DNA of 64,000 bases, from the NCBI GenBank assembly GCA_003439945.1, contig QVRM01002145.1:457001-521000 (forward strand). The letters are read 5' to 3'. The translations under genes were made by a program, and so were the position numbers. Below, piece by piece: positions 3,444-55,900 of the stretch (positions are counted from its first letter, which is position 1; every line of letters begins with the position of its first letter). Below the pieces are notes generated by a model. That model saw only the letters and a program-made list of their open reading frames with translations, searched no databases and had not been told where the DNA came from. This DNA is from Dermanyssus gallinae (taxonomy: Eukaryota; Arthropoda; Arachnida; Mesostigmata; Dermanyssidae).

Positions 3444-3459
3444 TATAATCATAAGTAAC

Positions 3460-3725
3460 GCGGTGTAATAGATCGACATCTAACGACGGCCTTTGCAGCT
3501 CACGGATTTCATCACGTTCTGTGCAACGTAGAGGGTTTTCATGAACCATAGGATGAATGTCAATGCAAACAATGCTGGAGCAAATGTGATCGATACCACG
3601 CCGCGGTATGCCCGGCGGTTAGGTCTATAGCAGAACTAGCAAAACGCTAGATTGTTGGCGTCTCGAAACATTTTGATGTAACATAAACACATTTACCCAG
3701 TTTGGGTGTTAATAAAACAAATATA
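3460..3725 (+). mobile_element. 5'-truncated LINE 3' end (family B) with 16-bp TSD
   Basis: The insert is bounded by a perfect 16-bp direct repeat, TATAATCATAAGTAAC, at 3444-3459 and 3726-3741. It encodes the last part of a LINE ORF: RHLTTAFAAHGFHHVLC, then a cysteine/histidine block and CDRYHAAVCPAV before the stop. The same block ends the longer family-B copy at 26928-28720. There is one in-frame stop after GFHEP. The 3' end carries a short palindrome (ACCCAGTTTGGGT) and AATAAA. It is 5'-truncated, as target-primed reverse transcription commonly produces. Confidence 0.8.
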
Positions 3726-3741
3726 TATAATCATAAGTAAC

Positions 3742-5260: not shown

Positions 5261-5944
5261 CATTTAAATCGGGCTGCGATAAATTATATATTACCAAAAA
5301 AAGTTCAGTAGAATAAAAAAAAACACAACGGGGCCTACAATGCATCCTTATTCATAATAATCACCATAATTCATAATGGAGCCCCCATATTCATACTATG
5401 CGAAGCTCATTTGATAGGGCGAATCCTGACATTGTTGAGGAACAGATACATTTATATTTATTCACTCAAGTCGAGTAGCTATTAAACCACAAATAAAACA
5501 CTTTAACACTAATAAGGACAGTGAACCAAGACTATCAGCGGGTAACCTGCATATGTATCGATATATATATATATACATTCCCTGGTATAAAATATAAAAA
5601 CTACAAGGCTCTATACTGATGTGCTAATTAATTTAACGATTGCACAAAATTGAATTCTGCAGCATGGTATCTTCGACAGAATTCACCGCGGCGGCGGCAT
5701 ACACAAGTCTTACATGGTTCATGAAACTCAGCGTTGACATAGAATGTTATGAAAGCCGTACACTACAAATCGTGGTATCACGTGTCTAAGGATGTCTTAA
5801 GGATCCAATACTCTCTCATTGCCGATTCAGCACCAGTGTTTTAAAAATGTTTGAGACGTAATCGCCCAGAAAAAAAGGGCGATAGCTAATTGAGGAAAAT
5901 CTGTCGCCCTTTGTTCTTGTATAACCTTAAGCGACTTTAAAGCT
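5259..5944. other. No recognisable gene
   Basis: AT-rich DNA with a short TA run near 5560-5575. Nothing is assignable before the minisatellite begins. Confidence 0.4.
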
Positions 5945-8900
5945 GGTCGGTTCTAATAACCAGTGAAAAGGACGCGGTTCTAAGAACAAGCCTATTCCAA
6001 GAACCAGCGAGGTGCACGCGGTCCTAAGAACGAGCCAGTTCTAAGAACCAGCGAAGTGCACGCGGTTGTAAGAACGAGCCGGTTCTATCAACCAGTGAAA
6101 AAGATGCGGTTTTAAGAACCAGTCGGTTCTAAAAACCAGCGAGGAGTACGCGGTTTTAAGAACCAGTCGGTTCTAAAATCGAGCGAGGAGTACGCGGTTC
6201 TAAGAACGAGCCTATTCTAAGAACCAGCGAGGTGCACGCGGTTCTAAGAACGAGCCGGTTCTAAGAACCAGCGAGGTGCACGCGGTTGTAGGAACGAGCC
6301 GGTGCTAAGAACCAGTGAAAAAGATGCGGTTTTAGGAACCAGTCGGTTCTAAGAACCAGCGAGGTGCACGCGGTTTTAAAAACAAGCCGGTTTTAAGAAC
6401 CAGTGAAAAGGACGCGGTTCTATGAACGAGCTGGTTTTAAGTATAAGTGAAAAGGACGCGCTTCTAAGAACAATCCAGTTCTAAGAACCAGTGAAACGAA
6501 TGTGGTTGTAAGAACGAACCGGTTCTTAGAACCAGCGAGGTACTCGCGGTGTTCTAAGAACGAGCCGATTCTGAGAACCAGCGAGGTGCGCGCGGTTCTA
6601 AGAACGAGCCGGTTCTATGAACCAATGAAAAGGACGCGGTTCTAAGAATGAGCCGGTTCTAAGAACCACTGAAAAAGACGCGGTTGTAAGAACGAGCCGG
6701 TTCTAAGAACCAGTAAAAAAGAGGCGGTTTTAAGAACGAGTCGGTTCTAAAAACCAGTGAAAAGGATGCGGTTGTAAGAACCAGTGAAAAGGACGCGGTT
6801 ATAAGAACGAGCCGGTTCTAAGAACCAGCCAGATGCACGCGGTTCTAAGAACAAGCGGGTTCTAAGAACCAGCAAGGTGCACGCGGTTCTAAGAACGTGG
6901 CGGTTCTAAGAACAAACGAGGTACACGCGGGGTAAGAACGAGCCGGTTTTAAGAACCAGTGAAAAGGACGCGGTTTTATGAACGAGCCGGTTCTAAGAAT
7001 CAGTGAAACGGATGCGGTTCAAAGACCGAGCCGGTTCTAAGAACCAGCGAGGTGCACGCGGTTTTAAGAACGAGGCGCTTCTAAGGACCAGTGAAAAATA
7101 CGCGGTTCTAAGAACGAGCCGGTTCTAAAAACCAGTGAAAAAGACGCGGTTTTAAGAACGAGCCGGTTCTAACAACCAGCGAGGTGCACGCGGTTCTAGG
7201 AACAAGCCGGTGTAAGAACCAGTGAAAAGACGCGGTTCTAAGAACTAGCCGGTTCTAAAAATAACAGTGAAAAAAAAACACGGTTCTAAGAACGAACTGG
7301 TTCTAAGAAGCAGTGAAAATGACTCGGTTCTAGGAACGAGTCGGTTCTAGGAACCAGCGAGGTGCTCGCGGTTCTAAGAACGAGCCGGTTGTAAAACCAG
7401 CGAGGTGCACTCGGTTCTAAATACGAGCGGGTGTAAGAACCAGTGAAAAGACGCGGTTCTAAGAACGAGGCGGTTTTAAGAACCAGTGAAAAAACGCAGT
7501 TCTAAAAACGAGCTGGTTCTAAGAACCAGTGAGAAAGACGCGGTTCTAAGATCGAGCCGGTTCCAAGAACCAGCGAGGTGCACGCGGTTCTAAAAACGAG
7601 CCGGTTCTTAGAACCAGCGAGATGCACGCGGTTTTAAGAACAAGCCGGTTTTAAGAACCGGCGAGGTGCACGCGGTTCTAAACACGAGCCGGTTCTAAGA
7701 ACCAGCCCGGTGCACGCGTTCTAAGAACGAGCCGGTTGTAAGAACCAGTGAAAAGCACGCGGTTCTAAGAACGAACCAATTCTAAGAACCAGCGAGTTGC
7801 ACACGGTTTTAAGAACGAGTCGGTTCTAAAAACCAGCGAGGTGTACGCGGTTCTAAGAACGAGCCGGTTTTAAGAACCAGCGAGTTGCATGTGGTTCGAA
7901 GAACGAGCCGGTTTTAAGAACCAGTGAAAGAGACGCGGTTTTAAGAACGAGCTGGTTCTAAGAACGAGCCGATTTTAAGAACCAGTGAAAGAGACGCAGT
8001 TCTAAGAACGAGCTGGTTCTAAGATCCAGTGAAAAAGACGCGGTGTTAAGAACGAGCCGGTTCTAAAAGCCAGCGAGGTGCCCGCGGTTCTAAGAACGAG
8101 TCAGTGGTAAGAACCAGTGAAAAAACGCGGTTTTAAGAACGAGCTGGTTCTAAGAATCAGTGAAAAAACGCGGTTCTTAGAACGAACTGGTTCTAAGAAC
8201 CAGTGAAAATGACGCGGTTCTAGGAACGAGTCGGTTCTAAGTACCAGCGAGGTGCACGCGGTTCTAAAAACGAGCCGGTTGTAAGAACCAGCGAAGTGCA
8301 CGCGGTTCTAAGAACGAGCCGGTTCTAAGAACCAGTGAAAAGACGCGGTTCCAAGAACGAGCCGGTTCTAAGAACCAGTGAAAAAACGCAGTTCTAAAAA
8401 CGGGGTGTAAGAACCAGCGAGGTGTACGCGGTTCTAGGAACGAGTCGGTTCTAAGTACCAGCGAGGTGCACGCGGTTCTAAAAACGAGCCGGTTCTAAGA
8501 ACCAGCAAAGTGCACGCGGTTCTAAGAACGAGCCGGTTCTAAGAACCAGTGAAAAGACGCGGTTCTAAGAACGAGCCGGTTCTTAGAACCAGTGAAAAAA
8601 ACGCAGTTCTAAAAACGGGGTGTAAGAACCAGCGAGGTGTACGCGGTTTTAAGAACGAGCCGGTTCTAAGAACCTGCGAGGTGCGCGCGGGTCTAAGAAC
8701 GAGTCGGTTTTAAGAACCAGTGAAAAGGACGCGGTTCTATGAACGAGCCGGTTCTTAGAACCAGCGAGGTGCTCGCGGTGTTCTAAGAACGAGCCGATTC
8801 TGAGAACCAGCGAGGTGTGCGCGGTTCTAAGAACGAGCCGGTTCTATGAACCAATGAAAAGGACGCGGTTCTAAGAATGAGCCGGTTCTAAGAACCAGTG

Positions 8901-10350
8901 AAAAAGACGCGGTTGCAAGAACGAGCCGGTTCTAAGAACCAGTGAAAAACGCGGTTCTAAGAACGAACTGGTTCTAAGAACCAGCGGGGTGCACGCAGGG
9001 TTAAGAACGAGCCGGTTCTAAAAACCAGCAAGGTGCACGCGGTTCTAAGAACGAGCCGGTTCTAAGAACCAGTGAAAAAACGCAGTTCAAAAAACGAGCT
9101 GGTTCTAAGAACCAGTGAGAAAACGCGGTGTAAGAACGAGCTTGTTCTAAGAACCAGCGAGGTGCACGCGGTTCTAAGAACGAGCCGGTTCTAAGAACCA
9201 GCAAGGTGCACGCGGTTCTAAGAACCGGCGAGGTGCACGCGGTTCTAAGAACGAACCGGTTCTAAGAACCAGCGAGGTGCACGCGGTTGTAAGAACGAGC
9301 CGGTTCTCAGAACCAGCGAGGTGCACGCGGTTGTAAGAACGAGCCGGTTCTCAGAACCAGCGAGGTGCACGCGGTTCTAAGAACGAGCCGGTTCTCAGAA
9401 CCAGCGAGGTGCGCGCGGTTCTAAGAACGAGCCTATCCTGAGAACCAGCGAGGTGCACGCTCGCTGCACTCACTAAGAACGAGCCGGTTCTATGAACCAA
9501 TGAAAAGGACGCGGTTCTAAGAACGAGCCGGTTCTAAAAAACAGTAAAAAGACGCGGTTCTAAGAACGAGCCGGTTCTAAGAAACAGTGAAAAAGACGCG
9601 GTTCTTAGAACGAACCGGTTCTAAGAACCAGCGAGGTGCATGCGGTTCTAAGAACCAGCGAGGTGCATGCGGTTCTAAGAACGAGTCGGTTCTAAGAACC
9701 AGTGAAAAGGATGCGGTTATAGGAACGAGCCGGTTCTAAGAACCAGTGAAAAGACGCGGTTCTTAGAACCAGTGAAAAAAACGCGGTTCTAAGAATGAAC
9801 TGGTTCTAAGAACCAGAGAAAATGACGTGGTTCTAGGAACGAGTCGGTTCTTAGAACCAGCGAGGTGCACGCGGTTCTAAGAACGAGCCGGTTCTAAGAA
9901 CCAGCGAGATGCACGCGGTTCTAAGAGCGAGCCGGTTTTAAGAACCAGTAAAAAGGACGCGGTTCTATAAACGAGCCGGTTCTAAGAATCGGTTCTAAGT
10001 ACAAGCCAGTTCTAAAAAAACAGTGAAAAAGACGCGGTTGTAAGAACGAGCCGGTTTTAATAACCAGTGAAAAAGATGCGGTTCTAAGAACGAGTCGGTT
10101 CTAAGAACCGGCGAGGTGCACGCGGTTCTAACAACGAGCCGGTTCTAAGAACCAGTGAAAGAGACGCGGTTTTAAGAACGAGCTGGTTCTAAGAACGAGC
10201 CGGTTCTAAAAACCAGTGAAAAAGACACGGTTCTAAGAACGAGCTTGTTCTAAGAACCAGCGAGGTGCACGCGGTTCTAAAAACGATCCGGTTCTAAAAA
10301 CCAATAAAAAGAACGCGGTTTTAGAACGAGCCGGTTCTAAGAACGAGTTG
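5945..10350. repeat. 4.4-kb minisatellite, about 44-bp unit
   Basis: The array is built from GGTTCTAAGAACGAGCC (17 bp) followed by a 27-bp half that begins GGTTCTAAGAACCAG. The 27-bp half ends in either a GTGAAAA-GACGC or a GCGAGGTGCACGC tail. Dividing the array length by 44 gives roughly 100 units. Both halves share GGTTCTAAGAAC, a near-palindrome, so the unit probably arose by duplication of a shorter monomer. The two tail variants alternate irregularly, with many point changes and some deletions. The period is not a multiple of three and the minus-strand frames across it (60-78 codons) are by-products. Spacers are not unique, so it is not a CRISPR array. Confidence 0.95.
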
Positions 10351-10631: not shown

Positions 10632-11784
10632 CAGGGTGTTCCTATTTGTGTGTCCAAAACGCTAGGGTATGGTCAAACTCGGTGAGAAAATAATTTTTGC
10701 CAATGGGTGGAAGCCGGGAAAACGTTTTGTTTAGGAGTGAGGATGAAATTTTTAAAAGCAGTTATTCTGTCTTTTTTCTCCTACATAGTTATGCAAAATC
10801 TACGTTTGCGGGTATAACCAGTCAACGCTCAAAGGAACCGATCATACCGGCGTGTTTGGCGGAAAATTCTGCACAATAAAGTATACATTACTAGCTTGCG
10901 TAGCAAAAAGCGAATAGCCAGATTAAGGAAAGTCATAAAAAGTTAAAATGTTACGTTAACGCTTTTTTGTGCAACATCGTAATTTTTTCTATTACGACCA
11001 AAAATTCACGCCCAAAAGACTACTCTCAGGCAATAGCAGATTTAATGCCCACTACATTCGTACTAAAGTGATGGTGCTGCGTTACGTAGTTGCCAAGTAA
11101 CTAAGCTTTTTCGACAGTCATATCGAAAGCGAAGGCATGCATACTTGCATAGGGTGTATGAGAAAGTTAGGTACATATTTTGAGGTTTGGTAGAACTCAG
11201 CAAGAGAATAATTTTTTCTAATGGAAAGAGGGGGCGGAAACGTCTTGGCAAAATGCTACGGTTCTGAACGTGAAAACTTCAACGTGAAACATAATAACTA
11301 TGACTGTCGAAAAAGCTTAGTCACTTGGCAACTACGTAACGCAGCACCATCACTTTGGTACGAATGTAGTGGGCATTAAATCTGCTATTGCCTGAGAGTA
11401 GTCTTTTGGACGTGCATTTTTGATCGTAATGGAAAAAATTACGATGTTGCACAAAAAAGCGTTAACGTAACATTTTGACTTTTTATGACTTTCCTTAATC
11501 TGGCTATTCGCTTTCTGCTACGCAAGCTAGTAATGTATACTTTATTGTGCAGAATTTTCCGAACACGCCGGTATGATCGGTTCCTTTGTGCGTTGACTGG
11601 TTCTCCTGCAAACGCAGATTTTGCACAACTATGTAGGAGAAAAAAGACAGAATAACTGCTTTATAAATTTCATCCCCACTCCTAAACAAAACGTTTTCCC
11701 GGCTTCCACCCATTGGAAACAATTATTTTCTCACCGAGTTTGACCATACCCTAGCGTTTTGGACACACAAATAGGAACACCCTG
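10632..11784. mobile_element. Fold-back element with mariner-like ends and TA flanks
   Basis: Arms of about 490 bp (10632-11122 and 11300-11784) are inverted copies of each other around a 177-bp centre. The outer ends read CAGGGTGTTCCTATT inward from each side and are flanked by TA, the target duplication typical of Tc1/mariner elements. No transposase is encoded; the small frames in the arms mirror each other. The central part contains a further diverged copy of the arm start (near 11190-11250, GGCGGAAACGTCTTG). It is non-autonomous, and a mariner-type transposase would have to act in trans. Confidence 0.85.
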
Positions 11785-20984: not shown

Positions 20985-21741
20985 CCTAGTGTCGGTTCTC
21001 AGAATCGGCGGGCTGATTTGCAAGGCCTGTGGAAAACCAGTGGAGAAGGATGGCCTACACCCACTGAGCTGCATCGAAAGTCAAGGCCGAGCTCCTAGGC
21101 ACATCGAAATAAACACAGTAATTCAAAGAGCTCTCCGGAGGGCGGGAATATCTAGCATGCTGGAACCCCGACTGGGACTCCATGGCGATAAAAGGCCCGA
21201 CGTTGTCACCATTTCGCCGTGGACAAAAGGCAAACGCCTGGTTTGGAATGGTACAGCACAGCCGCACCGTCTTATTTGTGCCACAGCGCCACCGAGGCGG
21301 GGTGGGTTGCCGAACACGCAGAAAATGAAAAGTGGCGTAAGTACACAGAGTTAGAGCCGAGACATGATTGCAATGGAGACAATAAGCCCGGTCAGCAGAA
21401 GTACAGGGACATTTATAAAAGACTTAAGTGATCGATCAAGCAAACACCAGGGATACACGCGAACGCGAGTTTCTGACGCAGCTGCTTTCATTGGCATTTT
21501 TTTACAAAGGCCAGGAACAAAAATGCATAAGGTGCACTCTTTGATCTGGGGAGTGTGGGACTCTCAAACCCACTAAAAACCTGGTGATGCCCTAACCTAC
21601 ATAGCCGGGATATCTGTCATTGGCAGTTTGCAGAGGAAATGTCGCGTCGATATTAGGTGCGATGGGCTAAGAATATCCAAAGGGGAAGCACGAAATAACG
21701 AGGATACACATTCACACCTCACAGTTGTATTGTTCTAACAC
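20985..21741 (+). pseudogene. REL-LINE C-terminal fragment (family C, copy 1)
   Basis: One open frame gives CKACGKPVEKDGLHPLSC (zinc knuckle, C-x2-C...H-x4-C), RHIEINTVIQRALRRAG, then DKRPDVVTISPW and LVWNGTA. RPD holds the first catalytic residue. The second, Asp in WDATV of sister copies, is Asn here (codon AAT), which would inactivate the endonuclease. A frameshift near 21290 precedes GWVAEHAENEKWRKYTELE. The copy is followed directly by (TAA)n. Confidence 0.75.
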
Positions 21742-21868
<127 letters not shown>

Positions 21869-21869
21869 G

Positions 21870-22462
21870 ATGTCAGCACTTAGAATCGGCGCTAGCGTCT
21901 GCGAGCCGTTTCAGTGCAAACTGTGCGGGGAGATGGTGGATTCCAGTGGCCTACACCCACTGAGTTGCCCGAAGAGCGCCGGTAGATCGTCCAGACATGC
22001 TGAACTAAACGGTGTGATCATAAGGTCCCTTAGGAAAGCCGGTATACCATCTACACTTGAACCGAGAGGTTTAGTGTCCGCTGGCGAAGAAAGACCTGAT
22101 GGGGTGACCATTGCATGATGGTCACATGGAAAGTCCCTAGCTTGGGATGCAACGGTTTCGTGCACGACCGCGGCTTCCTATTTACACCACAGCTCTGTTG
22201 AGCCGGGGTGGGTAGCAAAGCACGCAGACGCCAGAAAACGGTTTAAATATGCTGGACTGGAAACAAGATATATTTTTGTGCCTATCGCCATGGGGACACT
22301 AGGACCAATCAGCAAGGGAACCGAAGAATTTCTCAAGGCAAGCGTTGTTCTTGGCCGTTTGCAGAGGAAACGCGGCATCTATTTTAGGCGCCATGGAGTG
22401 AACTAATTATTTAAAAAACTTTGCAATAATACGTTCAGACCTCTCAACTGTAACATCGTATA

Positions 22463-22463
<1 letters not shown>
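21870..22463 (+). pseudogene. REL-LINE C-terminal fragment (family C, copy 2) within (TAA)n
   Basis: The frame opens directly at the end of the TAA array: CKLCGEMVDSSGLHPLSC (zinc knuckle), RHAELNGVIIRSLRKAGIPS, EERPDGVTIA, a TGA stop, then GKSLAWDATVSCTTAASYLH. RPD and WD supply both expected catalytic positions. It continues with EPGWVAKHADARKRFKYAGL and, after a shift, LAVCRGNAASILGAM before the end. The 3' tail enters another (TAA)n at 22464, so TAA repeat lies on both sides on the sense strand. Confidence 0.8.

Positions 22464-22540
<77 letters not shown>
22464..22540. repeat. (TAA)n array
   Basis: It separates the tail of REL-LINE copy 2 from the 5' break point of the long REL-LINE copy. 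Confidence 0.95.
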
Positions 22541-24884
22541 GCTATAAGGATAAAGCTCGCGCTCAGATCGCTGCTCACAAGCTTTCCATGGATTTTAATG
22601 TGCGGAGCGCCATTAGGATCTTGTCTTCCGATGACACGATTGCGCCCGTAACGGAGGAATCGATTAATGAGATGGTGGCAAAACATCCTCCTGCTCCTGC
22701 AGGGGACGTGGTGCCACCGTCCCCTTTCGGCTTGCCAGCGGTCGGGTCGTGCTCAGGCGAGGATGTTGCCAAGGCACTTCGCACCTTTCCATCTGGTGCG
22801 GCGGGAGGCCTCGACGGCCTCACGCCTGACCATCTAAAATGCCTTCTCCCTGCTAACGGAGACCACAACGATGTACTGCAAACACTCGCCAAAGTATGCG
22901 ACATCATACGTAACGGGCAAGTTCCGGAGGCTGTAAGAAACGTGATATATGGAGGGTGGCTTATCGCTCTGAAAAGAAAACCGGAGGATACCGACCCATA
23001 GCCGTCGGCTGCACTCTGCGAAGATTGGCCACAAAGACCCTGCTTCCCCAGGTCAATGTGAAAAGCTACCTGCAGCCACGGCAGATGGGGTACGCCACTC
23101 AAAATGGTGCAGAAATAATTGCTCACACAGCTCGCACCTTCCACGAACACGACGAAAAATGCAGCCTCCTAAAATTAGATTTTAAAAATGCGTTTAACTT
23201 AAACAAATGAGGACACCTCTTGACAGAGGTTTCCAAGCACGCCCCGGCCCTCTATCCAATGATGCACCAGGCATATAGCAAACCAACTCCCCTAATGTTT
23301 GGTGAGGTTGAAATTAGATCATCAGCCGGTTGTCAGCAGGGAGACGTAGCAGCTCCTCTTGCATTTAGCCTGCTTCTGCATCAGTACATCAAGCAGGTGA
23401 CATCCAAGGTCCCTTTGTTTTACCTCGACGATGGGACCCTTCTGGACAACCATCCTTCGGTGTTACTCAGGGACATCGAGGATCTCAGAGCGTTCGAGCA
23501 GTGGAGCGGACTGCAGCTTAACCCATCTAAATGCGAGCTATTTCTACAGGGGTTTGAGGACGGAGAGAGACAGCAGGTGATCGCTGAATTTAACAGCAAC
23601 CTCCCGGGCATCCTTGTAAAGGATCGATGTGATTTGGACCTGCTGGGTACGGCGGTGTTTCCCGACATGATCGGTCCGGTTCTAGCCGAGAAGGAAGAAC
23701 AACTTTCCCGGCTTTACCAGAGGCTGGGCCATCTCGGTAGACATCAAGCCTACTTCCTGCTCCGGCACGCAATAGGAGTGCAAAAGGTCCTGTATGTACT
23801 ACGGACCTCACCTGTCTTCCTTCTACCGTCAGAAACTCTGAACCTCGACGACCAGGTGAGGAGAGCCTTGGAAAACATCCTTGACCTAACGCTTGATGAT
23901 AAGGCATGGACGCAGGCAAGCTTACCGGTCCGGCTGGGTGGAATGGGCATTCGTTCGGCCAAGGGATGCGCGTCAGTCTGGTCGTCCATCTGAGGAACAG
24001 GTCACTAGGCAGAAGGGGTGGGACCAACTCGCCACTCAGGCTACCCACTTAATTCTTCTGTCGGCCTCCGAGTTAGATGTAGACGGCATTAGACTGAAAG
24101 CGGTTTCATCCGACGCCGCTGGAGCGTGGCTCGACGTGTTTCCGTCCGATCTAGTCGGCAGTAAGCTGACCGATGACCAGTTTCGTGCCGCCAGTGGCCA
24201 CAGGCTTGGCATTGCCACGTTTGAGAGGGAGGAATGTCCGTGTGGTGGAACGGTGGATGAACGCGGCTTGCACTGGCTCAGTTGCACTAAGCTGGCCGGG
24301 CTCACGCAGGGCCGCCACGATGCCATCAATGACATCCTCGGGCGCGCTTTCAGGCAAGCCGGCTACCGCGTCACGCTTGAAACTGGTGGACTGCAAAGGG
24401 ACAACAAGCGTCGACCGGATGGCCTTACCAGCCGGGACTGGGACCATAATCGGCCGCTGGCGTGGGACGTGACTGTTTCACACACGTACGCCCTCGGCTA
24501 CCGTGCACTAGCCAACGCGGGCGTCGGCCACATTATCCACCAACGGGAGATGCACAAACGGCGCCTATACGCGCATCTTCTTGAAGATCACGTTGTAATG
24601 GCGTTCGGCCTCGAGTCATCTGGCGTTTGGGGCAAGGATGCACTCAGACTGGCAAAAGAGCTTGGAAAGAAGCTATTTGAGGCCACAGCGGAGCCAAGAT
24701 CGACCGCGTTCCTCCGACAGAGAGTGTCATTAGAATTACAGAGAGGCAACGCCAAGATGATGCTGAGTGGTCAACGACACTCAAGCAATAAGAATACTAT
24801 ATGCAATATTGTAGATGTTATTTAAGTGATATGTAAGTAATTGTGATACATGTACATATTAATAAAATAAACCCTTGTTAAAAA
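22541..24884 (+). mobile_element. Longest REL-LINE copy (family-B1 RT plus endonuclease), 5'-truncated
   Basis: The copy starts directly after (TAA)n and ends in AATAAAATAAACCC..., an A run, and (TTA)n. It includes the RT domain, zinc knuckle, REL endonuclease and a short 3' UTR. The N-terminal part of the ORF is absent. No clear TSD can be read because both flanks are microsatellite. Confidence 0.8.
22543..24825 (+). pseudogene. Reverse transcriptase with C-terminal REL endonuclease
   Basis: In order: FPSGAAGGLDGLTPDHLK (about 22790), KKTGGYRPIAVGCTLRRLA (about 22975), LLKLDFKNAF (palm A, catalytic Asp), SSAGCQQGDVAAPLAFSLLL (about 23320), and FYLDDGTLL (YLDD catalytic pair, about 23420). 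The second half has ECPCGGTVDERGLHWLSC (zinc knuckle, about 24235), RHDAINDILGRAFRQAG, RRPDGLTSRDW and LAWDVTV (REL core), ending near SLELQRGNAKMM. I see a frameshift near 22960, a TGA in place of an expected CGA near 23208, and a deletion or shift near 23980. It made target-nicking and cDNA activities when intact. R4/Dong-like or a related REL clade fits best. Confidence 0.8.
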
Positions 24885-25325
<441 letters not shown>

Positions 25326-25329
25326 GACC

Positions 25330-25365
25330 TAATAATAATAATAATAATAATAATTATTATTATTA

Positions 25366-25443
<78 letters not shown>

Positions 25444-25455
25444 TATTTTTAATTT
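25330..25455. repeat. (TAA)n switching to (TTA)n
   Basis: A short TAA run at 25330-25352 meets a long TTA run to 25455, so the strand polarity of the triplet flips inside the array. Confidence 0.9.
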
Positions 25456-25574
25456 TATCTTTATTACATGTTAAACGATGTTACAGTTGAGAGGTCTGAA
25501 CGTATTATTGCAAAGTTTTTTAAATAATTAGTTCACTCCATGGCGCCTAAAATAGATGCCGCGTTTCCTCTGCA

Positions 25575-25575
<1 letters not shown>
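25456..25575 (-). mobile_element. Very short REL-LINE 3' tail (family C)
   Basis: 25475-25575 is an exact inverted copy of 22359-22459 (101 bp by my reading), covering the last codons and 3' UTR. The tail then continues on the minus strand to AATAAAG. Triplet repeat lies on both sides. It is an extreme 5' truncation inserted in (TTA)n. Confidence 0.85.
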
Positions 25576-25613
<38 letters not shown>

Positions 25614-25807
25614 TTTTTTTTTTTTTTAACAGCATGGCCCTCCGACGTTAGACGGCCGCCATGCTATCGCGGCGGCGACCTCATAACAAATTATTATTAT
25701 TATTATTATTATTATTTAGGAATTTAATATATACAAGGCTCACTCCTCATCTATCACTCGTGTCCGAGTGGGAGTCTTGCCCGACCCCTGACGCGAAGAC
25801 GCGGGTC

Positions 25808-26912: not shown

Positions 26913-26927
26913 ATTGAGTTACTTAAA

Positions 26928-28624
26928 TCGGTGTAGAGCAGCGAAAGATGCCAACAGACTAACTAGAGGATATGTGAAGATGTTTCCTGTATTAAGGCCG
27001 TTCGCAAGTATGGTAAAGAAAATGACACAAAAGGCATACAAGGAAGAGAAACAAAAATATTGGAAAAGTCAGGAGTGGGCGCTGTTGCAAGAAGCAGAGA
27101 AACAAACACACAAGTGGCTAAAACAAAAAGAAAACGGCAGTGCCCAGTGGAGACTGGGCGATTAATTAAGCACTTTGCTAGTGTGCTGCAGGGAGCCGAT
27201 ACTACCCCAAAGAAAATAACATTATTCAACGGGCCTTGGGACGAGGAAACAGAACGTGCACGGGAATGGGTAATTCGACCAGTCACAATCGAAGACGTTG
27301 TCAGAGCAATTGAAAGGGCGCCTAGAGGCAAAGCTGCCGGGAACGATATGTTACGAAACGAGCATTTAAAGCAAACGCTGGCACTCGCACCATGCTGGAA
27401 AGCTTTATTTGACGAGTGCCTAAAATCCGGGGAAGTACCAAAAGCGTGGAGGGAAGATACCTTGATTGTCATACCAAAAGGAAAAGGCATAGAAACTGAG
27501 CCGGAATCTTGGAGGGGCATAACACTTAAGAGTTGCCTCTATAAAATTTTTTCGGGAATAATATCAGATAGACTAGAGCATTACCTCGAAATCAGAAACG
27601 CAATACCAGAAGAACAACATGGGTTCAGAAGGTCGAAGTCGACCCATACGGCCCTGCGCCAGTTGCTGGCAGAAATTTGGGAAACTCTAGCAGAACCTAA
27701 AAGACCGTTATACGCAATATTTATAGATCTTAAAGCTGCCTTTGACTTAGCGCCACGAAGTAGGATTATAGAAAAGTTAGCCTTGGAGGGAGTTCCGTAT
27801 CGCTTACTAAAACTTTTAAGTACCATTCTTGGGGAGACTACAGTACACATCGACAACGGTATAGGGATTGTGGGAAGAGTAAAGCAAACTACAGGAGTGG
27901 CCCAAGGAGACGGACTTAGCCCGTTGCTTTTTTCGGTACTATTGGGAGGGCTACCTAATCGGGTGAGGCAGGGGTGGACCCGAGAGTGGGCAAATACATT
28001 AATGTATGCAGATGACATTGCGATCTATGGCAGGAGTTTATTTAGGGTTGAGCAGGGACTAGAACGGCTAATCGATTATATGGACGAAATGGGACTTAGT
28101 ATTAACTGGCAGAAGACAGTAGCAGTTAAATTTCGAAGAGGAGGTTGATTGGCGAAAGACGATGTTCTTCGAGCCAGGGGTAATACAGTGAATTTTGTAA
28201 ATAAATTTACTTATTTAGGGGTCACTATTACGTCAAATGGTAGCTCTCTTGTAGGAATAGAATAGTTCATATATTAGAAGGGGGGGCTCTAATGACACAG
28301 GAATTACAAGTAAAACGGGGTTTACCTAAGACGACGGCCTTCGTGGCCTACACTACGAAGTGGGGGGGAAAATTAAAGGAGATAGACATAGGAATATACA
28401 CGACGATAGCGATGAGGAGTACAACCTGGCGAGCAGCCGGACATCAGAATAGGCACCTAACTACGGCATTTGCAGCCCACGGGTTCCATCACGTGTTATG
28501 CAGCACACAAGAATTCCACAATCCTCAGGAGTGTTGTAAGTGCGCGAGATGCTTAGGCCATTGTGATAGATACCACGCCGCAGTATGTCCAGCAGTGCAA
28601 TCAATAGCTGAACTCGCAAGATGA
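26928..28624 (+). pseudogene. Family-B LINE reverse transcriptase and C-terminal zinc region
   Basis: The first frame to 27165 (KAYKEEKQKYWKSQEW) is the linker before the RT. After a shift, 27060-28148 gives 362 codons. APRGKAAGNDMLRNEHLK precedes LIVIPKGKG, followed by EEQHGFRRSKSTHTALRQLL, AIFIDLKAAFD (palm A), TTGVAQGDGLSPLLFSVLLG and NTLMYADDIAIYG (YADD pair). A TGA at about 28146 interrupts, then VNKFTYLGVTITSNGSS. The last frame (28292-28624) has RHLTTAFAAHGFHHVLC, CCKCARCLGHCDRYHAAVC. The RT core is intact. The clade among APE-type LINEs is not settled by eye. Confidence 0.85.
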
Positions 28625-28720
28625 GGGAAGATCCGGTGACGCAGAAAAAAAACACTGATTCAGACTGATGTACTTACTTAAAATTTACCCAACCTGGGTG
28701 TTAATAAACCATAATAATAA
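26928..28720 (+). mobile_element. 5'-truncated LINE (family B) with 15-bp TSD
   Basis: It is flanked by ATTGAGTTACTTAAA at 26913-26927 and 28721-28735, a perfect direct repeat. The 3' end has ACCCAACCTGGGTGTTAATAAA, the same palindrome plus polyadenylation signal as the 3460-3725 copy. The endonuclease domain expected upstream of the RT is missing, so the copy is 5'-truncated. A third, older copy is at 53655-54520. Confidence 0.85.
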
Positions 28721-28735
28721 ATTGAGTTACTTAAA

Positions 28736-31020: not shown

Positions 31021-31539
31021 TACCAATTTACTAATAAATATCCACGCAATGGAAACGCTGCAATTAAATGTAACAGAAGAGTATGATATTTTTCAAGGAG
31101 CGTTTTATTCCTGGGCAATTATCTCTTCTCGCCTCCCCCTCTCCCTAAAGCCTTGCAGTGGTTAACTGTAGCCTGTCGTTATTGATCTCGGTCAATATTG
31201 ATTCAATATATTTTTACAGGGGAGTATCAAGTAATAGAGATACTGCAAGGGTAGGGTGGATGTTACGGGCAATATTTGTGTTGTTAAGGATATGCACATA
31301 TGCATGCCGTATACATGCTGTGTGTAATACATGCGGCCTTGTATTTTGGCTCTAGACTCTGTTGCAAAAAAGGCCTGGGTCTGTAGAACCCTACGTCATG
31401 TATAAAGGCGAGCATATGTAGTAGCGTTTCTTGATGCTCAGCGTATGTACGCCGGTTTACCTAACGCAGCGTCGGCAGGCTGGTTCGCATCAAGTATAGT
31501 GCGGTATGCGCATTCAGGGATTCCAACCTGGAATACCAG
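31021..31539. other. No recognisable gene
   Basis: A 65-codon plus-strand frame is the longest. Nothing is assignable. Confidence 0.35.
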
Positions 31540-33405: not shown

Positions 33406-34248
33406 ATACATATAAGCTTTGCACACATAGCCGCTCCTTGCAGCGTCTCCTCGCTGTAAGAGGAGCCATCGTTGTTTCCGATGAGCTGATCATAGGTGGT
33501 GCTTGACTACCCACGACTCATATACTGACAGTTACTTCAATAGTAGATGCTCGTGCGCAATCTCAAATTACTATTATAACAGACATAGTTGCAAGATACC
33601 TTGTGCAAGGAAAGAACATAAAAGTCAGTCAATATTGATTCATTCTTATGAAGAAAATATACACTGTTTAATATATCTCCGTCTTTCGAAAAGATTGATA
33701 AGATCGCTAGTACAGCGGTCGAAAAGCCTGTGGCGTGTTTTTTTTTGACAGCAATGTAGCTGTCCTCGCCCGTGAGATGAAAAGAGCCACTTATGGGGTG
33801 CTGGGAAAAAGGACGAGCTCGAAGAGAACACGAGGTAATCTTAGATATCAAGCAGGCAAAAAACTATTAACTAGAGGATGGACTTAGCGGAGGTGATCGT
33901 TGTGTTAAATTAAAAACTCCAAATGACGTACTCTAAATGAACTAATTTGGAGTTGCTACTATGGGAATTATTGTGAATAATCTAATTGGACATCTCAGGC
34001 ATAAGGCGACGCCATCACGTATGTTGATGATACATAGCGGAATAACTTATATCATGAAAAGTCAAGAGCTCGCCGTTCTGTCTACAAAATTGACGAAAAG
34101 AAAATATTAATCACTTAATGATCTAGCTAGTTTCAACGATATAAATGACCACCGGCTGCTCTATTCAAGTGGCCGTGGAATTATGAGACTGAGTATAATC
34201 CAGTCCATGATCGTATGGCAGCCAACAATGAGCTGGCCAATTTTAGAT
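33406..34248. other. No recognisable gene
   Basis: Overlapping frames of 60-104 codons at 33503-33851 on both strands have no motif I recognise. Confidence 0.35.
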
Positions 34249-35985: not shown

Positions 35986-36010
35986 GGAATCGAATAATAC
36001 ATTAACGTAT

Positions 36011-36026
36011 TCTAGTACGCGTACCA
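36011..36026. repeat. Target-site copy 1: TCTAGTACGCGTACCA
   Basis: A 16-bp sequence that directly precedes the poly(T) of the minus-strand LINE. Its core GTACGCGTAC is a perfect palindrome. Identical copies are at 38556-38571 and 38878-38893. Confidence 0.95.
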
Positions 36027-38555
36027 TTTTTTTTTATATGCTGAAACCTCTCAGCATTAATATGGGGGATTACGGGAATCGTGATGTACATGCGCCACCA
36101 CAGCCAGTGACTAGTGTGGGACTCACAAACCCACTAACACCCGCCTCCCCCCCACCCCCAGGGAACGGTAACTGCTAGGCATCGCTTCGTATCCATGGGA
36201 GTGGACAGTTTGCCTCTCCTCCCTACTCTAGCCTTCTTACAGTCGCCCTAGCCCGCTTTGGTGCGGGGCGGCGATTTCAAGAAGGCCGTTGATACCTTCC
36301 GCAGCCCGCCCGCCTGTGGGTGCGTCGAGAGTCATCATCTGGGGAATCCTTTGCTGTATTTGCCGAGCCTGGTCCTCCTGCCTATCACCCACCCGCCTCC
36401 CGTCTACAGATTCCGCCTCTCGACCAGAGCCTGAGTGGACGCTAAGACGAGCTCTCCTGGCAGTCTCTTTGACCACCTTCGTGGACATGATCGCATCAAA
36501 GTGGGCAATACCTTCTTTCCAGGCCGCCGCTGAAGTCATCATATGGGTGACGACCTCGTTGACTGGTCGGCCTCGCACAGCGGCCGCCCCCGCGTCCCGC
36601 GCTTCCCGGAGGGCCCCACAATGCAGAACAGTGTGCTCTACATCGTCCGGTTTCCCCGAGTCGCATAGTACGCAGGAGTCGACTTGAACTTTGTTAATCT
36701 TAACCATATACGTCTGGAACTGACCGTGGCCGGTCAGCACCTGGGACACATAATAAGATAGCTCGCCGTGTCTGCAGTCGTGCCATTGCCGTAGGTCCGG
36801 GATCAGACTTTTGGTCCAGCGACCCTTGGTGACCCCCCCAGGAGCTGCTGCCCTCAACCATTCTTTCTGCCAAGAGTCCAAAGTAGCTAATCTAGCCCGT
36901 GTGGGGTCTAGATCACCGTCCAGCGCTCGTTCTGCTCGCTCCCCGGCCAGCAAATCCCATGGCAGCATCTTGGACACGACAAGTAGTGCCTCAGTCGACA
37001 CGGTACGGAATGCGCGGCAGACCCTTATGGCTCTCAGCTTTCTCCTGTTGCATGCCGTCTTAAGTGCCCTGTCTGCCCATGCCGGTGCTCCGTAAAGGGC
37101 GACGGATTCTGCAGCAGTTGCCAAAAGGCGGCGCTTTTCTTCTCCAACTCCTCCGACTCTTGGCATCAGGCGCGCCAGATTGCTGGCCACCTTTCGGGCC
37201 TTTGCTGACACGTGCTGTATGTGCGCTGCGCCAGTCAGTTCCTTGTCGAGTATCACCCCGAGGTACTTTGCCTTTTTTCCCAAAACAATTGGGTGACCTG
37301 CTACTTCGACCTGTATGTTTTTGGTCATTTTTCTGCCTGTTAGGTACAGCGCCTCAGTCTTGTGCGGTGCCAGTTTTAATGAATGGTTTTCCATCCAGTC
37401 TGTCACCATCAGCAAGGCCTCATTGGCGGCTGACTCTAGTGCTCCCGTACTACAAGCCGTGACCAGAAGGGCCAAGTCGTCGGCATAACCGACCATCTCG
37501 ACACCCCTAGGCAGACCCTGCAGCTCGAGAACCCCGTCATAGGCGAGGTTCTACAGGACCGGTCCCAGAACCGATCCTTGCGTGACCTCTGCAGTAACTG
37601 CGTAGCTCTGATCGCCGGCCAGCAGGCCTCTCTCCGACAGGTACAATGCTATGATTCGACGAAGGTAGGGCGAGATGCCCTTGCGCTCCATCGCTTGCAT
37701 TGCCACTTTCCAGCTCATCGAGTTAAAGGCGTTCTTGACGTCTAGGAGAATAAGCAGCACAAAGTCCCGTGTTTTGGGGGTCTTCGTTAGCTGCTCACCT
37801 GCCCGTCTCAGTACTCTTGCCAGTGCGTCGAACGTGGACCGTCCCTTCCGAAAGCCATACTGTGCTTCTGATAAAGCCCCGTTGGCTTCGATCTCGGCGT
37901 TGAGCCTGTCAACCAGTACGTTCTCCAAGATCTTACCCATAGTGTCGAGAAGACATATGGGACGGTAGGCAGGCTCTCCTGCAGGGGCATTCCCTCCCCC
38001 TTTCGGGATCAGGACCAGGTTAGCCTTCTTCCACAGCCTCGGAAAACGCCCCTCTCTGAGAAGTCTGTTGGCCAGGGTCTGAAAGACTTTTGGCCAGCGC
38101 TTCACTAGCAGCCTCGCCGCTCCAGGAGGAACTCCGTCCAGGCCGGGTGCCTTTCCGGGTGTCAACCTTTTCCTTGTTCGCTCGACCTCATCTAACGTTA
38201 CCTCCGGAATGTCTTCCGGGGCAACCAGAAACTCCTCCTCTCCTCTCCACGGATGGTCCGGAAAGAGATGGCGAACCGTCTTCTCCAGCACATCCGGTGG
38301 TAGTCTAGGAGGTGGTTTCCGGAGCTTGACCGAGTCGATCCGGTAGGGCCGACCCCAAACGTCCCTTGCCACCTCTTCTATCAAAAGCTTCCAAGATTTC
38401 GCCTTACTCTTCTCAATAAGCTTCTGCAATATGCGTCTGGCAGCTCCGTAAGACGCTAGGAGGTCGGCCGATCGTTCGTCCACCGTCTACTCTTGCTCCC
38501 CTCGGGCGACTCTTTCACTCAGCCATGAGCGCTGTCTAGTGTAAGCCCTATTTAG
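36027..38555 (-). mobile_element. 5'-truncated R1-type LINE flanked by 16-bp TSDs
   Basis: Read on the minus strand, the element runs from 38555 to a 9-A tail at 36035-36027. It contains most of the RT, the C-terminal domain with a zinc knuckle, and a 3' UTR with two stem-loops: TAGTGGGTTTGTGAGTCCCA near 36133-36114, and GCTGAGAGGTTTCAGC at 36055-36040 next to the tail. The perfect TSD and well-kept ORF suggest a fairly recent insertion. The endonuclease and ORF1 are missing through 5' truncation. Confidence 0.9.
36237..38555 (-). pseudogene. R1-type RT ORF, near intact, interrupted by two TAG stops
   Basis: The frame is continuous from the 5' break point to a stop at 36237, apart from TAG at 38487-38489 (after ARGEQE) and TAG at 37551-37553. 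The second lies in GSVLGPVL*NLAYDGVLEL, where relatives have Trp, so one TGG to TAG change explains it. RT blocks: LTPGKAPGLDGVPPGAAR, YRPICLLDTMGKILENVLVD, AQYGFRKGRSTFDALARVL, ILLDVKNAFNSMSW (palm A), TQGSVLGPVL and MVGYADDLALLVTA (YADD). C-terminal domain: KYLGVILDKEL, LYGAPAWADRAL, LTGHGQFQTYM and CVLCDSGKPDDVEHTVLHC, the C-x2-C-x9-H-x4-C knuckle. About 770 codons. R1 clade is well supported by motif pattern. Confidence 0.9.
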
Positions 38556-38571
38556 TCTAGTACGCGTACCA
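38556..38571. repeat. Target-site copy 2, between LINE and SINE
   Basis: Identical 16-bp TCTAGTACGCGTACCA, shared by the 5' ends of the LINE (to its left) and the SINE (to its right). Confidence 0.95.
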
Positions 38572-38877
38572 CCTGGCGGCGTGGTCTAGGGGACTATTGC
38601 ACTAGTCATGGTTGTCATCTACCGGGGTGTCGCAGGTTCGGTCCCTGCTGTTGATCGAATTTTCTTTGAGCGATGCTCATTGAGAATAGATGATCAACCA
38701 TACCGCTGAGAGTCAGCGGCCATGCTGCCACAATGACTGTTGAGGAAACCCTAGATAATTTAACATCTCCGGTCCTCGGTGTATTAAAGATATATCTCAG
38801 GTTAAGTTCCAAGCCCATATAAAACGCATATTAGTCTAGAATTAAAAACAACCTTCTTAAAAAAAATAATTTTTATT
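38572..38877 (+). mobile_element. tRNA-derived SINE (family 1, copy 1)
   Basis: A Pol III A box TGGTCTAGGGG at 38582-38592 and B box GGTTCGGTCCC at 38635-38645 are spaced as in a tRNA. The body follows: TTTTCTTTGAGCGATGCTC, GAGAATAGATGATCAAC, a short hairpin CCGCTGAGAGTCAGCGG, and GGTCCTCGGTGTATTAAAG. It ends in an A-rich tail, CTTAAAAAAAATAATTTTT. Both sides carry the 16-bp TSD. Copy 2 at 55650-55900 shares head and body. No protein is encoded; a LINE must have mobilised it. Confidence 0.85.
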
Positions 38878-38893
38878 TCTAGTACGCGTACCA
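38878..38893. repeat. Target-site copy 3, after the SINE tail
   Basis: Third identical copy of TCTAGTACGCGTACCA. Confidence 0.95.
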
Positions 38894-38999
38894 TTGGCTC
38901 TTTTGCCATTTGCTAGGTTGCTTTGTTGTAGGTAATATTGTTTAAAACCATATGCAACAGTTGGTTACTGTGTAGCGTTCGCCCTTTGATTTAAACTTT

Positions 39000-39490
39000 T
39001 TCAAAAAACGGTAAATCTATGCACATGTTTACCCGTCGCTAAAAACATACCCACATCGTGTTTGACGACGCAAACAATATTATTCGTTACGAGAGCCTCA
39101 TGTATGGAGTTTTTATATCTTAAATTCAAAGCTTTGCTTATGTTAAGCAACGTGTTGAAAGCAAGTTTCGTATTCAATTCAAATGCAACTTTATTCTGAC
39201 AAAGGGGGGCATATTTACCTAAATTCATACGAAATACAATTTGTTTGTGTGACGACATTTGCGCCGTTAGCATTTTGAGGTTTCAGTGCCCTTGCCATCC
39301 GCCACGAAAACAAGTTATTTACACGGTCTGTCTTGGCAATTCGTATTGACGAGAGGGTATTACCGCTTCTACGATTGTTTAAACAAATGCTAAAATATTT
39401 TGAACTATTTGATGATTTTATAATACGATTGTACATACGATAGTCCGCGCTAGACTGCAGTTCCCAAATAGGACTTATCACAATAGAACC
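39000..39490 (-). pseudogene. C-terminal end of a LINE protein (CR1/Jockey-like)
   Basis: On the minus strand, MISPIWELQSSADYRMYNRI and TDRVNNLFSWRMARALKP match 60471-60650 (INPIWDLRFRADCRKYNRML; PDRVNNMFSWRMIRTM). In the latter copy the segment follows a VQRKFLRRV motif typical of LINE C-termini. After a shift, a minus frame continues to 39001. It is the 3' part of a LINE ORF without its RT. Confidence 0.6.
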
Positions 39491-40404
39491 TCACAACAAT
39501 AGGTAAACTTTGGAACAACTTAACTATTATAAAGGTTCATGTAAAAATATTTATAAAATTGCGAAATATTATATCTGATATGAAACTAATTTGTCGAATA
39601 ACTTGTGTGATATCAGTGCTAAAATCTAGTTTCGGTGTCACCGTAACCACGAAGTCCCTAATGCTATTTAAAATAGGGACATGCCTCTCCATGCAGCATG
39701 TAGTAATGGGCTCTATTTAAACATACTTCGGCACTGATAGAAGCATTTCGTTACACACCACTTAGAGACTGCCTCTATCGCACTCGGTAATATTTGCCAT
39801 CAATCATTTAAGTTATCGATTCGGGAATAACGTTTTAAGAACTAAAAAAAATGCAAAACAAAAGTTGGTCGAGGCTTGATCTCTGAGAAACGTCAGAGGG
39901 GCATGCTCCGAACTCACTAAAGATAAATGTTTAATTAAACGGTTCCAACATGCAACAGTTCTACCAAGTGTTGCAAGCTAGTTAATGCCATGATATCTAC
40001 GATTTTGATTTGCGCCAATTGGAGCCGGGTAGATGGCCTAGCCCAGAATGCGGGTTATTTTAACATCAATAAATTGTACCATCTTTGTATTTCTATATTC
40101 ACTATTTAGTCTGCCCTTGCGTAAACAAACACAGCGTTGAATCGATATGCGCCGCCATCGGGATTCTCTCGAGATGGCGTGTCGTCTGTTCTTCAATTCA
40201 AAACAGAAACTGTTATACTCTAGAGTAAAGTGTTTATTGTTAGCATATGCCCTTGCTTGTAGTATATGTATTTGGCTTGATTTTGCGCGAAAGGGAAGCG
40301 TTATTATTAGCACTTATCTAACATTAATATATTTTTCAATAGATACAATCTGTCTGCTACACAATTTGTACAATGTCTGCTAGGTTTTCATAGTTCCCAA
40401 AGAC

Positions 40405-55649: not shown

Positions 55650-55900
55650 AAAATTTAAAAGAAAAACGTTTCTTAAATGTTTTCTTCAATGCACCGAAGA
55701 CCGGGCATGTTAACATATCTGAAGTTTCTCTAACAGTCCTAGCGGCAGTTCCGCCGCTGACTCACGGCAGTTTATCATCTATTCTCGATAGGCATCGCTC
55801 AAAGAAAATGCAATTAACATCAGGAATTGAACCTGCGACCCGGTAGATGACAACCATGACTAGCGCACTAGCTCCCCAGACGAGGCGGCCACTACAGTGC
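55650..55900 (-). mobile_element. tRNA-derived SINE (family 1, copy 2)
   Basis: Read on the minus strand it has the same head as 38572: GCTAGTGCGCTAGTCATGGT, GTTGTCATCTACC, B box GGTTCAATTCC, a full match to the consensus, at 55833-55823. The same body follows (TTTTCTTTGAGCGATGCC, GAGAATAGATGATAAAC, GGTCTTCGGTGCATTGAAGA). The A box is altered. CACTCATCT at 55641-55649 and 55901-55909 may be a 9-bp TSD. Confidence 0.8.

Follow-up and report, generated by a model that had tools for sequence, protein, structure and literature searches.

A LINE and a SINE head to head between three identical copies of one 16-bp target in Dermanyssus gallinae

Three target copies and two head-to-head elements

The window, by which we mean the whole 64-kb stretch of DNA analyzed, contains three exact plus-strand copies of the 16-mer TCTAGTACGCGTACCA, starting at positions 36011, 38556, and 38878. 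Along the plus strand, copy 1 is followed by a LINE on the minus strand, copy 2, a SINE on the plus strand, and finally copy 3, and the two elements lie head to head (Table 1). All three 16-mers were recovered exactly and at the positions listed in the initial annotation, and no fourth match to TCTAGTACGCGTACCA was found on either strand of the 64-kb window at up to three mismatches. Three matches at this tolerance were reached in 0 of 100 shuffled sequences (mean 0.25, largest 2), which rules out a chance origin of the three 16-mers. The three-copy structure is real and unusual.

Table 1. Features of the three-copy locus and the second copy of the SINE
Feature	Position	Strand	Remarks
Target copy 1, TCTAGTACGCGTACCA	36011..36026	+	With flanks, 36010-36028 identical to 38877-38895
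5'-truncated R1-like LINE	36027..38555	-	C-terminal part of ORF2, from the reverse transcriptase onward
ORF2 open stretch with RVT_1	37551..38486	-	In-frame TAG at both ends
ORF2 open stretch after internal TAG	36237..37550	-	End of RVT_1 match (below cut-off) and C-terminal region
Target copy 2	38556..38571	+	Common to both elements; 5' junction of each
SINE, tRNA-like head, A/T-rich tail	38572..38877	+	306 bp
Target copy 3	38878..38893	+	
Second copy of the SINE	55674..55891	-	Unrelated target, AGATGAGTG on both sides (by eye)

Each element displays the anatomy of target-primed reverse transcription (TPRT), with the 3' tail at one target copy, the 5' end at the other, and a perfect 16-bp duplication. 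The LINE is bounded by copies 1 and 2 and the SINE by copies 2 and 3, in agreement with the earlier statement that each insertion taken alone has a perfect target duplication. That two TPRT-like products occupy one target with reversed strand order is likewise seen directly in the copies and their orientations.

The three copies differ in their surroundings. With [T] denoting the 16-mer, the context of copy 1 is attaacgtat[T]tttttttttatatg, that of copy 2 is ccctatttag[T]cctggcggcgtggt, and that of copy 3 is aatttttatt[T]ttggctcttttgcc. The outer copies 1 and 3 match over 19 bp (TTCTAGTACGCGTACCATT), whereas copy 2 matches over 16 bp only. The longer outer match has two sources: the genomic base before copy 1 is identical to the base with which the SINE tail ends, and the genomic TT after copy 3 is identical to the start of the T-run of the LINE. 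As a consequence of these shared 19 bp, the nicks can be placed only to within 2 nt on the top strand for the LINE and to within 1 nt on the bottom strand for the SINE. The proposal that both insertions used the same nick positions agrees with the shared target to within this ambiguity.

The same string would also be obtained if the insertions of two alleles had been joined by recombination between target copies, or if the third copy were an assembly error. However, 16 bp of repeated sequence offer little length for recombination, which would still require two hits on one site. The elements between the copies are wholly different, so that simple collapse or expansion in the assembly provides no explanation. 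We therefore regard an origin by recombination or misassembly as very improbable.

The LINE, the SINE, and their relatives

Nine T residues directly follow copy 1 (36027-36035) and represent the A-tail of the LINE on the minus strand. At the other end, the element stops inside ORF2 and abuts copy 2, from which the frame reads LNRAYTRQRSWLSERVARGEQE, then TAG, then TVDERS. The 5' truncation and the two in-frame TAG stops carried by ORF2 are additions to the earlier description. By visual comparison with the family consensus, about six residues (SAQRxL) are also missing from the LINE. The first open stretch from copy 2 contains RVT_1 (Pfam, 1.2e-16), and the match in the stretch behind the internal TAG (1.5e-05, 25.2 bits) falls below the curated cut-off of 29.6 bits.

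We searched for relatives with the ORF2 read-through, in which TAG was translated as Q, and obtained 505 at E <=0.001 from 7985 scored candidates. Among the best 120 of these 505, the closest is P0002 (1078 amino acids), which is 60% identical over 91% of the query. The full-length relatives at the top of these 120 are 55-60% identical, none of them is labeled R1, and the four that are named by organism are all from insects (Trichogramma, Tenebrio, Callosobruchus, and Diaphorina). P0002 carries PF14529, PF03372, and RVT_1. In the Protein Data Bank, the best match of its endonuclease region, which is absent from the truncated copy in the window, is TRAS1, followed by R1 endonucleases. The reverse transcriptase part of P0002 and that of the first piece of the LINE match L1 and R2 proteins among solved structures, and no R1 reverse transcriptase is among these matches. 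Assignment of the LINE as R1-like is thus supported indirectly, through the predicted endonuclease of its relative P0002. The initial annotation of an R1-type LINE on the minus strand with its A-tail against copy 1 was correct in strand and tail, and its type is suggested by way of that endonuclease.

Self-comparison of the window revealed no second R1-like copy, the sole other match to the LINE being 30 bp at 21552-21581 (90% identical, E 0.001). In genome contigs, the LINE alignment gave 71 pattern matches, 34 of which were confirmed as relatives at 22-31% identity. The contigs of these 34, which belong to prokaryote assemblies, look like eukaryote contamination, and at this identity the relatives are too distant for target-site work. 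In viral contigs, 1 pattern match was obtained with the LINE protein and 66 with its alignment, and no relative was confirmed among them; the SINE pattern gave 0 matches there.

The SINE opens with a head whose motifs resemble what we take to be the consensus of the pol III A and B boxes. Within the SINE, no tRNA was detected by ARAGORN or, at the gathering score, by Rfam, and the six loose Rfam matches at 38000-39500 all lie below half their gathering scores. The tail ends with AAAAAAAATAATTTTTATT against copy 3 and is A/T-rich, not a pure A-tail. Of the tRNA-SINE with an A-rich tail described earlier, plus strand and place against copy 3 are retained, whereas the tail is better called A/T-rich and the tRNA head is one by likeness of motifs.

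A second copy of the SINE, read from 55891 to 55674 on the minus strand, is 78% identical (169 of 217 aligned columns). The flank match AGATGAGTG on its two sides, as read by eye, consists of 9 exact bases and is imperfect beyond them. The opening CC of the first SINE lies outside the alignment to the second copy and may represent extra junction bases. The SINE is hence both repeated and short, with two copies at different targets in the window and a 16-bp duplication at the target described here.

Three further repeat structures were observed in the window. A reverse transcriptase region at 21700-25620 (RVT_1 at 23211-23993) is located between long ATT/AAT microsatellites, with a repeated Cys-His-type piece nearby. 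We assume that this element might target ATT/AAT-type repeats (compare the R4/Dong elements). At 10860-11561, an inverted repeat with 263-nt arms, 97% complementary and 176 nt apart, forms a foldback-like element, and positions 5900-10000 are occupied by an array of many diverged copies at 44-bp spacing.

Palindrome and target-site preference

The target had been described as a palindromic 16-bp site. This applies to a perfect palindrome of 10 bp, GTACGCGTAC, but not to the remaining 6 of the 16 bases; these flank it unequally, with 4 on the left and 2 on the right, so that the palindrome is off center. A 10-bp palindrome is held by 2.1% of all 16-mers in the window, and by 0.5% with at least four G+C.

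On this palindrome was built the idea that an R1-type endonuclease can read GTACGCGTAC in both directions and acts for the LINE as well as for a SINE mobilized by it. The palindrome is indeed present in the target, and P0002, the closest relative among those listed, has an endonuclease that matches TRAS1 and R1. However, a single enzyme approaching the palindrome from both sides would be expected to make its first nicks at equal distances from the center. Counted on the printed copies, the simplest reading places them at 7 bases for the LINE and at 9 bases for the SINE. The distances become equal only with a LINE nick shifted onward by two bases, for which the ambiguity of the TT leaves room. 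Together with the off-center position of the palindrome within the duplication, this argues against a palindrome-reading endonuclease. A preference common to the LINE and the SINE is likewise opposed by the other SINE copy in the window: in place of a GTACGCGTAC-like target, AGATGAGTG was found there, a sequence that has nothing obvious in common with GTACGCGTAC.

Three additional results count against such an enzyme. Within the window, GTACGCGTAC is confined to the three target copies. No Rfam family was matched at its gathering score in the window, so that no rRNA, tRNA, or snRNA target is apparent, and a multicopy RNA gene as the target was ruled out on these grounds. Finally, no sequence match between the LINE and the SINE was found at E <=0.01, and mobilization of the SINE by the LINE is therefore unproven. 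Taken together, we consider it doubtful that one endonuclease served both elements through GTACGCGTAC.

Target-specific LINEs of the R1 clade include TRAS, SART, and R1. The LINE described here resembles such elements, as portrayed in the available part of PMC4640811, in its related endonuclease-reverse transcriptase type. It differs from them in that no repeated gene or telomere is seen as the target of its one copy in the window.

The other duplications in the window were inspected for comparison. Among five candidate duplications, a 10-bp palindrome is found in two (this target and a doubtful pair at 31191), and in the other three, palindromes do not exceed 4 bp. The duplication of the second SINE, which is among the five, is imperfect. 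The doubtful pair is a 15-bp direct repeat, GTCAATATTGATTCA, at 31191-31205 and 33628-33642, 2.4 kb apart, with the 10-bp palindrome TCAATATTGA. Shuffled sequence contained on average 0.5 pairs of at least 15 bp (largest 3 in 40 shuffles), and no clean element ends were found around the pair. It possibly reflects chance or another palindromic duplication around a stretch of sequence. Because of this chance level and the lack of clean element ends, we did not count the pair as support, although a true duplication at this position would favor the palindrome idea. The repeat list leaves out pairs starting at 5.9-10.0 kb, i.e. in the 44-bp array. The counts of real repeat pairs leave out 5.9-10.4 kb, whereas the shuffles represent the whole window, as Markov resamples in 2-kb pieces.

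Another LINE is represented by two truncated copies (3444-3741 and 26913-28735) that by eye share similar 3' ends, TGGGTGTTAATAAA. RVT_1 was detected in the 26913-28735 copy only, of the two tested. Their duplications measure 16 and 15 bp, at the targets TATAATCATAAGTAAC and ATTGAGTTACTTAAA. Judged from their sequences, the local duplications (AGATGAGTG, TATAATCATAAGTAAC, and ATTGAGTTACTTAAA) appear to give no sign of a common preference, the last two belonging to a different LINE.

Origin of the three-copy structure

The locus probably arose by two ordinary TPRT insertions at different times, which used the same nicks in turn. Each time, the two strands would have been nicked at nearly the same pair of positions, with a 16-bp stagger. 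The first insertion would have duplicated the target, and the second would have gone precisely into one of the two resulting copies. Judging from the T-run after copy 1, the LINE would have been primed from the top strand, with 5' truncation, whereas the SINE would have been primed from the bottom strand, as suggested by its tail before copy 3. The number of events, their order, and the cause of the re-use, which may be chance or a mild nick preference, are what we infer from this arrangement. An order with the LINE first is slightly favored, because the target TT could then pair with the A-tail of the LINE, the nick perhaps lying after CCATT. With the SINE first, the agreement at TT would be a coincidence.

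Two separate insertions are supported by the fact that each element on its own possesses insertion anatomy and a perfect 16-bp duplication. The ORF2 frame of the LINE, which by eye resembles P0002, reaches copy 2 apart from one TAG, so that no filler is evident at the junction of the LINE with copy 2. The duplications of 15 and 16 bp at the two truncated copies of the other LINE also speak for this reading.

Re-use of insertion sites has been described before. According to the available part of the NF1 study (PMC3219598), 18 retroelements were inserted at 15 sites, three of which were used twice. At one twice-used site, the insertions are in opposite orientations and their duplications measure 11 and 17 bp; at another, both the orientation and the 15-bp duplication are the same. 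For toothed whales, the accessible portion of PMC10531181 puts precise parallel insertions at ~0.18-0.29% of insertion cases. The locus presented here has in common with these cases, as far as those accounts extend, the independent insertion at one site, and with one NF1 case also the opposite strands. In contrast to both, where the re-used sites are found on separate alleles or lineages, it combines the two insertions with three target copies on one haplotype, a difference that counts against two insertions. Furthermore, both duplications here are 16 bp long, unlike the 11 and 17 bp of the opposite-strand pair in the NF1 excerpt, and belong to an R1-like LINE and a tRNA-like SINE.

Other considerations also weigh against two insertions. 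With assumed densities, which are guesses, 0.0003-0.77 exact double hits are expected per 64 kb, the top of this range being reached with a 50-fold site preference. Without site preference, the same assumed densities give 0.0003-0.016. A double hit is therefore rare but not absurd among many windows. By our own count, both tails point outward in 2 of 8 arrangements, and two independent events need not produce such an arrangement. Extra matched bases are present at both outer junctions (TT and T), whereas priming predicts them at one, in either order of events.

These last features would be expected if both elements entered in a single event, a reading that we consider unlikely but attractive. 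In a two-RNA form of twin priming, the top-strand end of a single staggered break would prime on the LINE RNA and the bottom-strand end on the SINE RNA. On reaching the end of its RNA, each cDNA would go on to copy the 16-nt overhang across the break. The complementary cDNA ends would then, as we suppose, anneal via the target and be filled in, yielding the order target-LINE-target-SINE-target. Such an event predicts one nick pair, opposite orientations, and outward tails without coincidence. It also predicts that all three copies are bounded at the same positions and that each primed junction has extra matched bases, TT in the case of the LINE and T in that of the SINE. On the other hand, neither the extra T nor the extra TT is present at the middle copy.

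The elements of this mechanism are partly known. For L1, it is established that a single LINE RNA can undergo twin priming and that the two parts then lie within one target duplication (PMC3024322). The resulting 5' inversion, as covered in the accessible part of that work, resembles the locus in its two inverted segments within one target duplication. Whereas twin priming joins two inverted parts of one RNA with no target between them, two different elements and a complete middle target copy are found here. Chimeric SINE-LINE insertions bounded by target duplications have also been catalogued (PMC13174262). The available portion of this catalogue lists 452 Alu/LINE-1 chimeras, 88.5% (text) or 83.2% (legend) of which are same-sense. 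Like the locus presented here, they consist of a SINE and an adjacent truncated LINE enclosed by one target duplication. In contrast, they are mostly same-sense and have one bounding duplication, and no inner target copy is mentioned in that portion. A middle target copy is thus missing from both twin priming and the chimeras, as described in these parts of the two papers, which argues against a single event. A literature search by titles and abstract openings recognized no three-copy case with such a joining step.

A double hit by ordinary mechanisms is most likely, and a concerted event on two RNAs is the most interesting alternative. If two hits occurred, the locus would clearly illustrate how, in nature, one pair of nicks can be used again exactly with the strand order reversed. 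This type of homoplasy is relevant to the use of SINEs as phylogenetic markers. If a single event took place, both ends of a TPRT break would be extendable on different RNAs and could be joined via the target. Three target copies with heads together and tails outward would then constitute a searchable signature, and the structure would provide a link between LINEs and the SINEs that they carry.
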